Shown: positions 32,776 to 36,801 of the stretch, one piece after another
How positions within the stretch are numbered: the first letter of the stretch is position 1
Layout: each line of letters opens with the position of its first letter
DNA from: Polyangiaceae bacterium
GTDB lineage: Bacteria; Myxococcota_A; Polyangia; Polyangiales; Polyangiaceae
Direction: 5' to 3'
Length of the DNA stretch: 64,000 nucleotides
Assembly: GCA_009780955.1 (NCBI GenBank)
Contig: WQZB01000001.1
Span: 1-64,000, forward strand
The notes under the pieces: model-generated
Told to the model about the DNA's origin: nothing
What the model saw: only the letters and a program-made list of their open reading frames with translations
Databases searched by the model: none
Made by a program: the position numbers and the translations under genes

Positions 32776-33861
32776 GTGTCGCGAACGGAAACATCGCTGT
32801 CCGTGCTCGCCGGTCAGCTCCTTGTGAGTGGTCTTTCAGCCGCGGAGATGTCGGCGAGTGAAAGACGCACTTTTGCCTCTGGCGAGCGCGGCGGAGTCGT
32901 TCTTTTCAAGCGTAACCTGACGCGGTCAATCATCGATGTAGCAAAACTCATTGCATCCGTGCAGAGTGCAATGCCCCTGCCCGCACTCGTTGCGGTCGAT
33001 CAGGAAGGCGGCCGCGTAGTGCGCCTTGGGCCGCCCGCACTTGCCCTGCCTGCCATGCGCCGGCTCGGCAATCTTGGCGACGCTGACTTGCTCACGCGCG
33101 TCGCGTGTGCCCAGGCCAAAGAGCTCCGCGCACTCGGCTTTACAATGAGTTTTTCGCCCGTGGCCGATGTGCACACGCGCGCCGAAAACCCAATCATCGG
33201 CGACAGAGCCTTTGCCGAAACACCCGAGGCCGTGGCCCGCTTTGCAGGCGCGTGGGCCGATGGCCTATCGCAAGGCGGCATTCTTACTTGTGCCAAGCAC
33301 TTCCCCGGTCACGGGGACACCACGGGTGACTCGCATCTCGTTCTGCCGCGCGTCGAGAGATCACAAGCCGATCTCGACCGCATCGAGATTGCGCCATTCC
33401 GTGCGCTCGCCCGGCGGCCAAGCATCGACGCCATGATGACCGCGCACGTGGTTTACCCCAGCATCGACGCCGAGCAGCCCGCCACGCTGTCGCGTGCAAT
33501 ATGCAGCGATCTATTGCGAACCAAGCTCGGGTTTCGCGGCGTTCTGTTCTCCGACGATCTCGAAATGAAGGCCATTTCGCTTTCTCCTGGTGATGCAGCA
33601 ATCTCCGCGATTGTTGCAGGTTGCGATGTTGTGCTCGCGTGCTCGAAAGCCGAAGTTGCCGACGAGATTCATGCCGCGCTCACCCGCGAAGCCGAAGGTA
33701 GCAGCGCATTTCGCGCGCGCTGCGAGCAAGCCTTTGAGCGCGCCATTGCCATGCGAAAGCGCGTGGCGCCGACGCCCGTGACCGATGCCGCTCTGCTCGC
33801 AGAAATTTTTGCGGGCAGCGCCCCTATTTCCAAAGAGCTCGATCGAAGGCTTGCAGGCTGA
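32776..33861 (+). CDS. nagZ: Beta-N-acetylhexosaminidase (glycoside hydrolase family 3)
   Basis: NagZ removes terminal N-acetylglucosamine from cytoplasmic muropeptides in peptidoglycan recycling. GH3/NagZ signatures are VAVDQEGGRVVRL, the flexible catalytic loop KHFPGHGDTTGDSH (~174-187, with the Asp-His acid/base pair), MTAHVVYPSID, and the nucleophile region GVLFSDDLEMKAI. There is no signal peptide, consistent with a cytoplasmic location. Length 361 aa. It starts with GTG or a nearby codon (MSRTETSLSVLAGQLL). It converges on the riboswitch-controlled lipoprotein gene. Confidence 0.92.
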   Translation: MSRTETSLSVLAGQLLVSGLSAAEMSASERRTFASGERGGVVLFKRNLTRSIIDVAKLIASVQSAMPLPALVAVDQEGGRVVRLGPPALALPAMRRLGNLGDADLLTRVACAQAKELRALGFTMSFSPVADVHTRAENPIIGDRAFAETPEAVARFAGAWADGLSQGGILTCAKHFPGHGDTTGDSHLVLPRVERSQADLDRIEIAPFRALARRPSIDAMMTAHVVYPSIDAEQPATLSRAICSDLLRTKLGFRGVLFSDDLEMKAISLSPGDAAISAIVAGCDVVLACSKAEVADEIHAALTREAEGSSAFRARCEQAFERAIAMRKRVAPTPVTDAALLAEIFAGSAPISKELDRRLAG

Positions 33862-33884: not shown

Positions 33885-35240
33885 TTATCGTGGCCAGACT
33901 TCCGCGCCACTAAGGTACGTGCCGGCGTTGTTGGTGAATGGGTTTTCACCAATCGTTTCGACGATCGGCACCACATCCTCGTCGCCTGCGGCTGGGAATG
34001 GCACACGAACGATGTCGATCGAGTCGGTATCGTAATTCTTTTGCGCGCCAACAATTGAATTGTTGCCGTCAAAGGCAAATGCGTCGATGCCACCAGGAAT
34101 CTCGATGCCAAGCGTGTTTGACTGCGGATTCCAGAAAAAAGTTTGCCCATAGAAACCGACCGCTGCGCGACTCGCATCTGCGTAAGCAAGCATCACCGGA
34201 AAGCCGTAGTTGTTCAAAGAAAGCAATGTTGAAGCCTGCCCCGTTGCGAGATCCACACCCTCAATGATGCGCTGTTGTATGTCACCAGGAGAACCATCGT
34301 CATTTGCAATATTGCACCCTGCATGCATCACGATGAGCCGGTCGAGCGCGGCGTCGTAAACAAAGGCGTTGCCGTTGATGGGAGGGTTGTAACCGGCAAG
34401 CACAATGCCACCTCCAGGGCCTGTGCCGCCAAGATCGACAAGGCTATCGGTTGTCATGTCGATCGCGATGATTGTGGGCTTTGATTCGCTGCAAACAATA
34501 GTATATCCATCTGGCGCCACCTTCGTGAGATCGACGTTTCCAAGAAGGACATACAAAAGGTTTTTCGCCGGAACGAAAACCGCGGATGTCATGTCAACCA
34601 CGCCGTCGCTGTCTTTTGGCTGAACGAGCGACGATAGATCAATGTACGAATCTGGCACGCCATTGCTTACGGTCTTTGTCGTGTCGATGACCGCAATGCG
34701 GTTGCGATTGTAGCGAAGAACGTAGCCTTTCGTGCATGTCGGAACGAACACGCCAGACGGATCGGCATAGTCCTGCCCACCAGCCACGCTATCGTCCGAA
34801 GCCACATTCCAGCTCGAGAGCGCGTTCCACGGCGCATTCGGGTCGAGCCTGACAACGAGATCTTCCGACTGATCCATCAAGTACGGCGCCGAAACCGAGG
34901 ATGTTGCGCCAAAGCCAGCAAATGGAAAGTGCCCTTCAACCTCGTTCGTTTGCAGATTGAAGACAGCAAGCTCGCTGTCGGTCGACCCGCCTGTCAAAAG
35001 CAGTCGCGGTGCGATCCCGCTCGTGTCGACACATGACGAAGCGCTCGCAGAATCTCCCGCATCGTCGTCAGCACCCTGCCCCGCTTCGACCAAGTCGCCA
35101 TCGTTACCGGCGTCATTGCTAGTCTCGTTGGCGTCGTTGCCATTGGCCACGGGATTGAGAACCGTGTCATCGCCGCAAGCCCAGAGAAGCCATGCGCTCG
35201 AGAAAACGAGCGCCGCAAAACCAAAATATGTGCGATTCAT
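33885..35240 (-). CDS. Cobalamin-riboswitch-controlled beta-propeller lipoprotein
   Basis: A 451-residue predicted surface lipoprotein. The signal MNRTYFGFAALVFSSAWLL ends WAC (lipobox-type Cys). An acidic linker (NDANETSNDAGNDGDLVEAG) separates it from a repeated beta-rich domain resembling YVTN/YncE-type propeller blades (LAVFNLQTNEVEGHFPFAG, RIAVIDTTKTVSNGVPDSYI, IIAIDMTTDSLVDLGG, AFVYDAALDRLIVMHAG, GVDLATGQASTLLSL). ATG 35240 has AGAGGA upstream. The gene stands alone directly downstream of a cobalamin riboswitch. From established knowledge, Bacteroides BtuG is a beta-propeller surface lipoprotein that binds cobalamin, so a corrinoid-capture role is an attractive inference here. Homology to BtuG is not shown. 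Confidence 0.8.
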   Translation of the reverse strand: MNRTYFGFAALVFSSAWLLWACGDDTVLNPVANGNDANETSNDAGNDGDLVEAGQGADDDAGDSASASSCVDTSGIAPRLLLTGGSTDSELAVFNLQTNEVEGHFPFAGFGATSSVSAPYLMDQSEDLVVRLDPNAPWNALSSWNVASDDSVAGGQDYADPSGVFVPTCTKGYVLRYNRNRIAVIDTTKTVSNGVPDSYIDLSSLVQPKDSDGVVDMTSAVFVPAKNLLYVLLGNVDLTKVAPDGYTIVCSESKPTIIAIDMTTDSLVDLGGTGPGGGIVLAGYNPPINGNAFVYDAALDRLIVMHAGCNIANDDGSPGDIQQRIIEGVDLATGQASTLLSLNNYGFPVMLAYADASRAAVGFYGQTFFWNPQSNTLGIEIPGGIDAFAFDGNNSIVGAQKNYDTDSIDIVRVPFPAAGDEDVVPIVETIGENPFTNNAGTYLSGAEVWPR

Positions 35241-35251
35241 TTTTTTCCTCT

Positions 35252-35273
35252 GCTTGCGCACGCCCGCGCAAGC
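35252..35273 (-). promoter_or_regulatory. Hairpin between riboswitch and ribosome binding site
   Basis: On the minus strand GCTTGCGC, a six-base loop and GCGCAAGC form an eight-pair perfect stem, ending one or two bases before AGAGGA and 11 bases before the ATG. It is the likely expression-platform element. A T-run (GGTTTTTG) lies just upstream, so both translational and transcriptional control are possible. Confidence 0.5.
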
Positions 35274-35282
35274 CGCAAAAAC

Positions 35283-35456
35283 CGAGGGTTACCGATTGTG
35301 GCCCGGTCTCCGGACTTTCGGATCATCCTCGCCCGAGCCCTTCCCAGATCGCAGCATGGCTGCCTTGACCCAGTGGATTGCTCGAGTTCGTCCCCGATTA
35401 CCGTGGCGGGTGCCGCGCCGGCATTTCACCGACTTCCCTTGTGAACACGTGCCCTA
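35283..35456 (-). promoter_or_regulatory. Cobalamin (B12) riboswitch
   Basis: Read on the minus strand, the region shows the conserved cobalamin aptamer. AGGGCACGTG is followed by GGGAAGTCGGTGAAATGCCG, then GCGGCACCCGCCACGGTAA (the B12 box region, close to GCCACTGTAA). Further on are CCACTGGG, GGGAAGGGCTCGGGCGAGGA and AGTCCGGAGACCGGGCC. This order and spacing fit class I cobalamin riboswitches, which repress their gene when adenosylcobalamin is bound. It lies directly upstream of the beta-propeller lipoprotein gene and downstream of the coaBC stop, so it controls only the lipoprotein gene. Confidence 0.9.
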
Positions 35457-35565: not shown

Positions 35566-36801
35566 TCAAGCGCGGAGTTTTTCGGCAAGCCTGGTCAGGA
35601 TTTTGTCGGCAAGATCTTCTTTTTTGCCATGCTCGAATGGCGACGCACCTTGGGCGGAAACCATGCAGATGCGATTGGTGCGCCGGCCAAGCGACTCGTG
35701 CGAGGCATTGGCAACGATCCAATCGACATTCTTCGTTACAAGCTTTTTCTTTGCGTAATCAATCACAAGTGCATCGTCACCCGTCTCGAGCGCAAACGCG
35801 ACGAGCACCGGCCGGGCGCCCAACCGGCGCGCGCCAATCTCGCCAATCAGATCGGGGTTGTGCACGAGCACGAGCGGCTCGGGCTCGGCCGCCGTTTTCT
35901 TGATCTTTGCGGTTCGACTTACGGCGGGCCTGAAATCGGCGACCGCCGCTGCCATCACGAGTGCATCGGCGCCGCTAAGATCATCGCCAAGAAGCGACCA
36001 GAGTGCATTCTGCATGTCGAGCGCCGTCTCCACGTTGTGGCGAACCACCCCCGGAGGCGTTGCTTGCGCAACGGGTCCTGCAACGAGATCGACATGGGCG
36101 CCACGAACTTGCGCGCGCGCCGCGATCGCGAAACCCATCTTGCCGCTCGAACGATTCCCAAGATACCTCACCGGATCGATGGGCTCGCGCGTTGGCCCTG
36201 CAGTTACGACGATGCGCATGCCTTCGAGATCGCGCGGTGCGCAAAGTGCGGCGATGGCCCGGGCAATCGCCGCAGGTTCTTGCATGCGGCCCATTCCTCT
36301 TTCGCCAGATGCCACGGGCCCCTTCAAAGGACCGCAAAAAACGACTCGGCCCTGTCGCCGGAGCTCTTTGACGTTACGCCGAGTTGCTGGGTGCTTCCAC
36401 ATCCGCGGATGCATGGCCGGCGCAACGAGAATCGGTCCGCGCGCGCAAAGCGCCGTAGCGGTAACGAGATCGTCGGCGCGCCCATGCGCAAGCCGCGCAA
36501 GCACGTCGGCCGTTGCCGGTACAATGGCGAGCACGTCGGCGCGCGCTGCCATCGATACATGCATCTCGCCCGAAAACGCCGGATCCCACATGTCGGTAGC
36601 AACCGCGTGCCCGCAGATCCCAGCGAAAGTGACAGGCCCAACGAAGCGCGCGGCCGACGCCGTCATCATGGGCAGAACGCTTGCGCCGGCTTTGATGCAA
36701 AGCCGCGCGACCTCTACGGCTTTGTATGCCGCGATGCTGCCAGTTACCGCAAGCACCACGCACCGGCCCGCCAGTCCCGTCATTGCCGCAAGTTCCGTCA
36801 T
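35566..36801 (-). CDS. coaBC: Bifunctional phosphopantothenoylcysteine decarboxylase / phosphopantothenate-cysteine ligase
   Basis: CoaBC makes 4'-phosphopantetheine on the route to coenzyme A. The N-terminal flavin-binding CoaC half has VVLAVTGSIAAYKAVEVARL, the catalytic-His region GEMHVSMAARADVLAIVPAT and the flap SGERGMGRM. The C-terminal CoaB half has VTAGPTREPIDPVRYLGNRS, SSGKMG, AADFRP-type sequence (VMAAAVADFRPA) and the KKKLVTKNVDWIVAN lysine motif. Length 411 aa. Start ATG 36801 (MTELAAMTG). Confidence 0.95.
   Translation of the reverse strand: MTELAAMTGLAGRCVVLAVTGSIAAYKAVEVARLCIKAGASVLPMMTASAARFVGPVTFAGICGHAVATDMWDPAFSGEMHVSMAARADVLAIVPATADVLARLAHGRADDLVTATALCARGPILVAPAMHPRMWKHPATRRNVKELRRQGRVVFCGPLKGPVASGERGMGRMQEPAAIARAIAALCAPRDLEGMRIVVTAGPTREPIDPVRYLGNRSSGKMGFAIAARAQVRGAHVDLVAGPVAQATPPGVVRHNVETALDMQNALWSLLGDDLSGADALVMAAAVADFRPAVSRTAKIKKTAAEPEPLVLVHNPDLIGEIGARRLGARPVLVAFALETGDDALVIDYAKKKLVTKNVDWIVANASHESLGRRTNRICMVSAQGASPFEHGKKEDLADKILTRLAEKLRA

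Follow-up and report, generated by a model that had tools for sequence, protein, structure and literature searches.

A cobalamin riboswitch precedes the gene for a predicted BtuG-like corrinoid-capture lipoprotein in Myxococcota

INTRODUCTION

BtuG (8bai, 8bmx, 8okv, and 3dsm; DUF5074) is an exported lipoprotein with a seven-bladed β-propeller, under B12-riboswitch control. BtuG binds B12 directly, BtuG2 carries a charge of −18e, and Trp194 of BtuG2 narrows the pocket (PMC10404256). According to Wexler et al., BtuG is restricted to the Bacteroidetes (PMC6143338). Riboswitches also control BtuJ (DUF4465) and BtuH, which are accessory lipoproteins in B12 uptake (PMC13398666, PMC8941943). XusB (9hqk) is a propeller lipoprotein with ferrichrome as its ligand. 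For YVTN/YncE-type propellers (1l0q and 3vgz), we know of no tie to B12 control. A search of open-access papers yielded none that describes a counterpart of BtuG or cobalamin riboswitches in myxobacteria. Here, we compare these systems with a locus of a Polyangiaceae bacterium, in which a cobalamin riboswitch directly precedes a lone lipoprotein gene.

RESULTS

The stretch of DNA analyzed here (the window) comprises 64,000 nucleotides. A preliminary description, made from the sequence alone, had placed a cobalamin aptamer at 35283-35456 on the minus strand. Using cmscan, we found that the minus strand at 35284-35499 matches the full cobalamin riboswitch model RF00174 (model positions 1-189) with 82.6 bits and an E value of 8e-19, the gathering cut-off being 31.5 bits; the aptamer is, thus, confirmed as a significant covariance-model match and is slightly longer than first described. 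It is the only RF00174 match found in the genome (4,199,173 bases in 112 contigs; 98.7% complete). The riboswitch is located between coaBC (35566-36801), which lies upstream on the same strand as the lipoprotein gene, and the lipoprotein gene itself. The L5 loop segment of the aptamer, as read from the sequence, is CCCGC at 35406-35410 (minus strand), and the pattern CCCGC-AC is present in 17 of 22 leaders.

The lipoprotein gene (33885-35240, minus strand) encodes a protein of 451 amino acids with an ATG start codon. An open reading frame with a GTG start codon (33885-35261) also exists; however, the ATG at 35240 is the likely start codon because it is preceded by the ribosome-binding site AGAGGA (35246-35251, minus strand), while the GTG falls within a leader hairpin (P13; see below). 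The gene is monocistronic, and the next gene downstream, which is β-N-acetylhexosaminidase-like, is on the opposite strand (32776-33861). At its N-terminus, the protein has the lipobox LLWAC22 followed by GDD, and the predicted lipid-attachment residue Cys22 is encoded at 35175-35177 (minus strand); lipobox-type N-termini are also present in the homologues of alignment A1, and in this respect the protein resembles BtuG. An acidic, Asp/Ala-rich linker follows and leads to the C-terminal domain (residues ~69-451; ~380 residues), which has a net charge of −28 and which the model and profiles described below support as a β-propeller. These features agree with the suggestion in the preliminary description that a single exported lipoprotein gene lies behind the riboswitch.

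Between the aptamer and the ribosome-binding site, and directly before the latter, is a hairpin, P13/L13 (GCTTGCGC-GGGCGT-GCGCAAGC; 35252-35273, minus strand). Its loop, L13 (GCGGG; 35263-35267), is complementary to the L5 segment CCCGC. In folding of the end of the leader, the P13 hairpin forms, and the whole stretch is not more stable than shuffled sequences (z −0.67). Most genus mates have a P13/L13 hairpin before the ribosome-binding site, with differing stem sequences. Across the leaders of relatives, 93% of the cells in P13 are paired vs 80% in shuffles, and both sides have changed in four of eight pairs. The covariation score of 0.434 was equaled in none of 500 shuffles, and the signal was lost when the partners were slid by 1-3 columns. 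We note that the set comprises nine rows picked because the hairpin is present and that related sequences may beat shuffles for other reasons; the covariation is, therefore, support for a real hairpin and not proof. Cobalamin riboswitches are known to form an L5-L13 kissing loop. By analogy, B12 should switch off translation of the lipoprotein gene, and we infer a translational OFF mechanism.

Homologues were found in each of the 11 genus mates that were searched, as well as in further genera of the same family, and they occur in 21 of 58 genomes when the window's own genome is counted. When coordinates were compared, 18 of the 22 homologues in Polyangia aligned in A1 were directly preceded by a riboswitch on their own strand, the four exceptions being those of G004 and G006 and two of the three copies in G030. 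Further members were identified by searching 379 genomes from the phylum with profile A1, the weakest matches being short and possibly other proteins. Among 20 loci followed up using this profile, 15 have a riboswitch just upstream, and at one further locus a lipoprotein gene separates the two, the riboswitch being ~1.1 kb upstream; because two of the 20 loci come from genomes already in the first homologue set, this set is only partly independent. A scan of a contig collection yielded one relative only, and a search among plasmids with a homologue as the query yielded no match. These data support that the riboswitch-gene pair is conserved in related genomes across many genera and that the family shares cobalamin-riboswitch control with BtuG.

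The genes recognized behind 31 riboswitches, i.e., that of the window and 30 in relatives, encode these lipoproteins, BtuB, a lipoprotein with a VDGPG motif, MetE, and NrdA, which fits a B12 regulon. The VDGPG lipoproteins (motif VDGPGxDFxVFEN) are another lipoprotein family with a weak match to LIC_13355 lipoproteins; their genes adjoin btuB or cobalamin riboswitches (L071, 15337-16041; L104, 7321-8115; L106, 9700-10356; L105, 9112-9852; and L063, 3938-4831), and their products are possibly corrinoid binders as well. In addition, unnamed reading frames, mostly with lipoprotein-like starts, are located directly behind cobalamin riboswitches at L020, L025, L005, L009, L017, L018, and L022; those at L020 and L025 have a W-G-x-HGGPM-like motif in common.

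On its own, the window protein had no match in Pfam, NCBIfam, or the PDB. The YVTN repeat model TIGR02276 did not match it and matched 3 of 22 homologues (best E value 0.0099), and no match to DUF4465 was found for the window protein or its homologues. An AlphaFold model built from the window protein and L056 only, and for that reason of modest confidence, has a pLDDT of 56 and a pTM of 0.59. In Foldseek, this model matched the propeller of quinohemoprotein amine dehydrogenase (3.9e-8), BtuG3 with cyanocobalamin (5.9e-8), and BtuG2 (3.8e-7). VIA-align placed it on BtuG3 (8okv) with Z 18.5 at 3.9 Å over 286 residues and on XusB with Z 16.6, and many other propellers scored similarly. Nearly all of the structural matches listed for the model are β-propellers, the blade count being uncertain at this pLDDT. 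Together with the propellers of the YVTN and BtuG types matched by profile, as described next, the model gives the propeller fold that had been proposed from the repeats good support. The comparison with BtuG and YncE folds, thus, favors a propeller and does not single out BtuG, as other propellers score like it.

Profile A5 was built from 22 diverse members, most of them riboswitch linked. Its best match in the PDB is the archaeal YVTN protein 1l0q (E value 9.7e-9), which shares the blade pattern, and the next nine matches, surface-layer/YncE-labeled sequences that include BtuG2 and BtuG3, have E values from 6.3e-5 to 9.7e-4. Lower matches are to hydrazine synthase (0.0098), glutamine cyclotransferase (0.033), and YncE (0.18). 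While 1l0q matches in several registers, the BtuG match is largely confined to a single colinear register (profile 159-261 against chain 78-166), which points to remote homology. Of the corrin-contacting parts of BtuG, only the region of Trp194 could be aligned; here, a conserved L-x-R/N-x-D motif of the family falls near Trp194 of BtuG2, as counted from alignment offsets with gaps. Profile A1 matched BtuG proteins at an E value of about 1. PF16819 (DUF5074), which includes BtuG, was not matched above its cut-off: the window protein had no family match, one of 22 homologues had an E value of 0.2, and L146 had an E value of 0.26. Because DUF5074 was not matched and profiles A1 and A4 (the latter described below) show no clear relation, we did not assign the lipoprotein to BtuG. 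No sequence match between XusB and the window family was found.

The preliminary description had stated that no BtuB, BtuCDF, or synthesis gene is adjacent. This is correct for the locus but not for the genome, since contig C53 carries a gene for a btuB-like receptor, for which TonB-B12 is the best model in NCBIfam (E value 7e-27, with a score below the cut-off of that model). No riboswitch was found upstream of this gene. A second lipoprotein family is encoded directly behind btuB in seven loci, including that on C53; thus, adjacency to btuB, as for BtuG, is absent at the window locus and present for a remote paralogue in its own genome and in relatives. Using hhalign, we found that this btuB-adjacent family matches the window family with a probability of 98.2% and an E value of 5.5e-14. 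Based on this remote profile relation, it is probably also a propeller; its profile A4 had no propeller match in the PDB. Because the genome has a btuB-like gene with a propeller-like partner, the window lipoprotein is a solo family member that does not stand in for an absent uptake system.

In G030, a riboswitch and btuB come first, followed by btuC, btuD, btuF, a DUF7676 gene, and two copies of the lipoprotein gene, one with its own riboswitch. TonB-B12 is the best model for the btuB-like receptor, and corrinoid models are the best for the permease and the ATPase; none of these scores reaches the curated cut-off. Elsewhere in the phylum, G059 has the order riboswitch, lipoprotein, propeller, and TonB receptor. 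Most genus mates keep a lone lipoprotein gene, and no close BtuB was found in them (best identity 27-32%). A TonB receptor that is 27-32% identical to BtuB is encoded at G010:C32:29816-31213 and in similar places across the genus and is a candidate partner of the lipoprotein.

In the window's own genome, we identified a MetH-sized open reading frame with a B12-binding domain, four more such domains, a class II ribonucleotide reductase (RNR), and one FecCD permease; MetE and CbiC were searched for in this genome and not found. The presence of MetH and class II RNR together with the absence of MetE and CbiC suggests that the host probably depends on imported corrinoid. Among 58 relatives, CbiC, a marker of corrin-ring synthesis, is present in only 2 and B12-binding domains are present in 57, so most of these lineages probably scavenge corrinoids. 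In the closest relative, G010, metE and the class I gene nrdA each lie behind their own cobalamin riboswitch (L057; G010:C18). A ribonucleotide reductase match at G000:C51:2188-3105 has an in-frame TGA and may be a decaying second ribonucleotide reductase; an intact class II gene is located elsewhere.

DISCUSSION

The lipoprotein described here resembles BtuG in being an exported propeller lipoprotein under B12-riboswitch control with an acidic domain, in having relatives that adjoin btuB, and in a weak colinear profile match. It differs from BtuG in that its gene stands alone, in its occurrence in Myxococcota and not Bacteroidetes, in the lack of a DUF5074 match, in a very low sequence identity, in the conserved R/N-x-D motif where the alignment places Trp194 of BtuG2, and in that corrinoid binding is here only predicted. 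It is also distinct from BtuJ, which is a jellyroll, and from BtuH, which binds B12 via a C-terminal globular domain. The preliminary description had proposed an independent, undescribed cobalamin-binding surface protein. The literature search agrees with "undescribed," in that no counterpart in myxobacteria was found in open-access papers; independent invention is disfavored by the remote relation to BtuG detected with profile A5. Based on these comparisons, the window lipoprotein probably works like BtuG, to which it would be distantly related.

It is, in our view, quite probable that the locus forms a one-gene unit for corrinoid capture that is repressed by B12, with putative corrinoid binding. 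Because the riboswitch linkage is conserved and related propellers are encoded beside btuB or TonB receptors, a BtuG-like corrinoid-capture lipoprotein is the best reading of these sequence comparisons. At low cellular cobalamin, P13/L13 would be undocked from L5, leaving the ribosome-binding site free and allowing the lipoprotein to be made. It would then be exported, lipidated at Cys22, and tethered on the outer membrane by the flexible acidic linker, where the strongly acidic propeller would bind corrinoids and hand them to a TonB-dependent receptor, for which the BtuB-like protein of contig C53, with its own propeller-like partner, is the candidate. From the receptor, the corrinoid would pass to the single FecCD-type (BtuC-like) permease. 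Once cobalamin occupies the aptamer, the L5-L13 kissing contact would close the leader and block translation. The location on the outer-membrane surface, the corrinoid ligand, and the hand-over to BtuB are predictions of this scheme.

The lipoprotein could instead capture another ligand that is useful under B12 scarcity, such as a metal (e.g., cobalt) or a siderophore-like compound. Propellers bind many ligands, the ferrichrome-binding XusB is among the structural matches of our model, and the zinc metallochaperone model AztD weakly matches one family member (E value 0.019). However, the genes of relatives immediately follow btuB or share an operon with a riboswitch and a TonB receptor, and the sequence profile prefers BtuG. 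A metal ligand is further disfavored by the lack of a His cluster at invariant positions; the invariant Cys250 and Cys309 could form a disulfide. On balance, we regard a different ligand as unlikely. Just as improbable, in our view, is that the protein is a structural or periplasm-facing part of B12 uptake that does not itself bind corrinoid. This possibility would fit the solo genes in genomes without a close btuB, and the protein may face either side of the membrane, but B12 is bound directly by BtuG, the profile match that has a known corrinoid role, and the domain is acidic, as in BtuG2 (PMC10404256).

That the riboswitch and the gene are side by side by chance or decay, with the riboswitch serving another gene or none, might be suspected from the single riboswitch in the genome, with none detected upstream of its btuB-like gene. 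This possibility is barely credible given that the linkage is kept across many genera and that an intact, covarying expression platform is present at the ribosome-binding site; we rejected it based on the conserved linkage, including that at the follow-up loci.

The reading of the locus as a corrinoid-capture unit may extend to the family. As a serious possibility that falls short of being probable, a large unnamed family of propeller lipoproteins under riboswitch control in Myxococcota may capture corrinoids at the cell surface, often without an adjacent or recognizable BtuB and via a different receptor, with prey perhaps the source of the corrinoids. If so, BtuG-type capture would be ancient or have arisen convergently and would reach far outside the Bacteroidetes. 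A riboswitch-controlled propeller family in Polyangia and other Myxococcota would mean that corrinoids are captured at the cell surface in a further phylum, which is known for its predators, and would supply diverged sequences with which to probe what makes propellers bind corrin.
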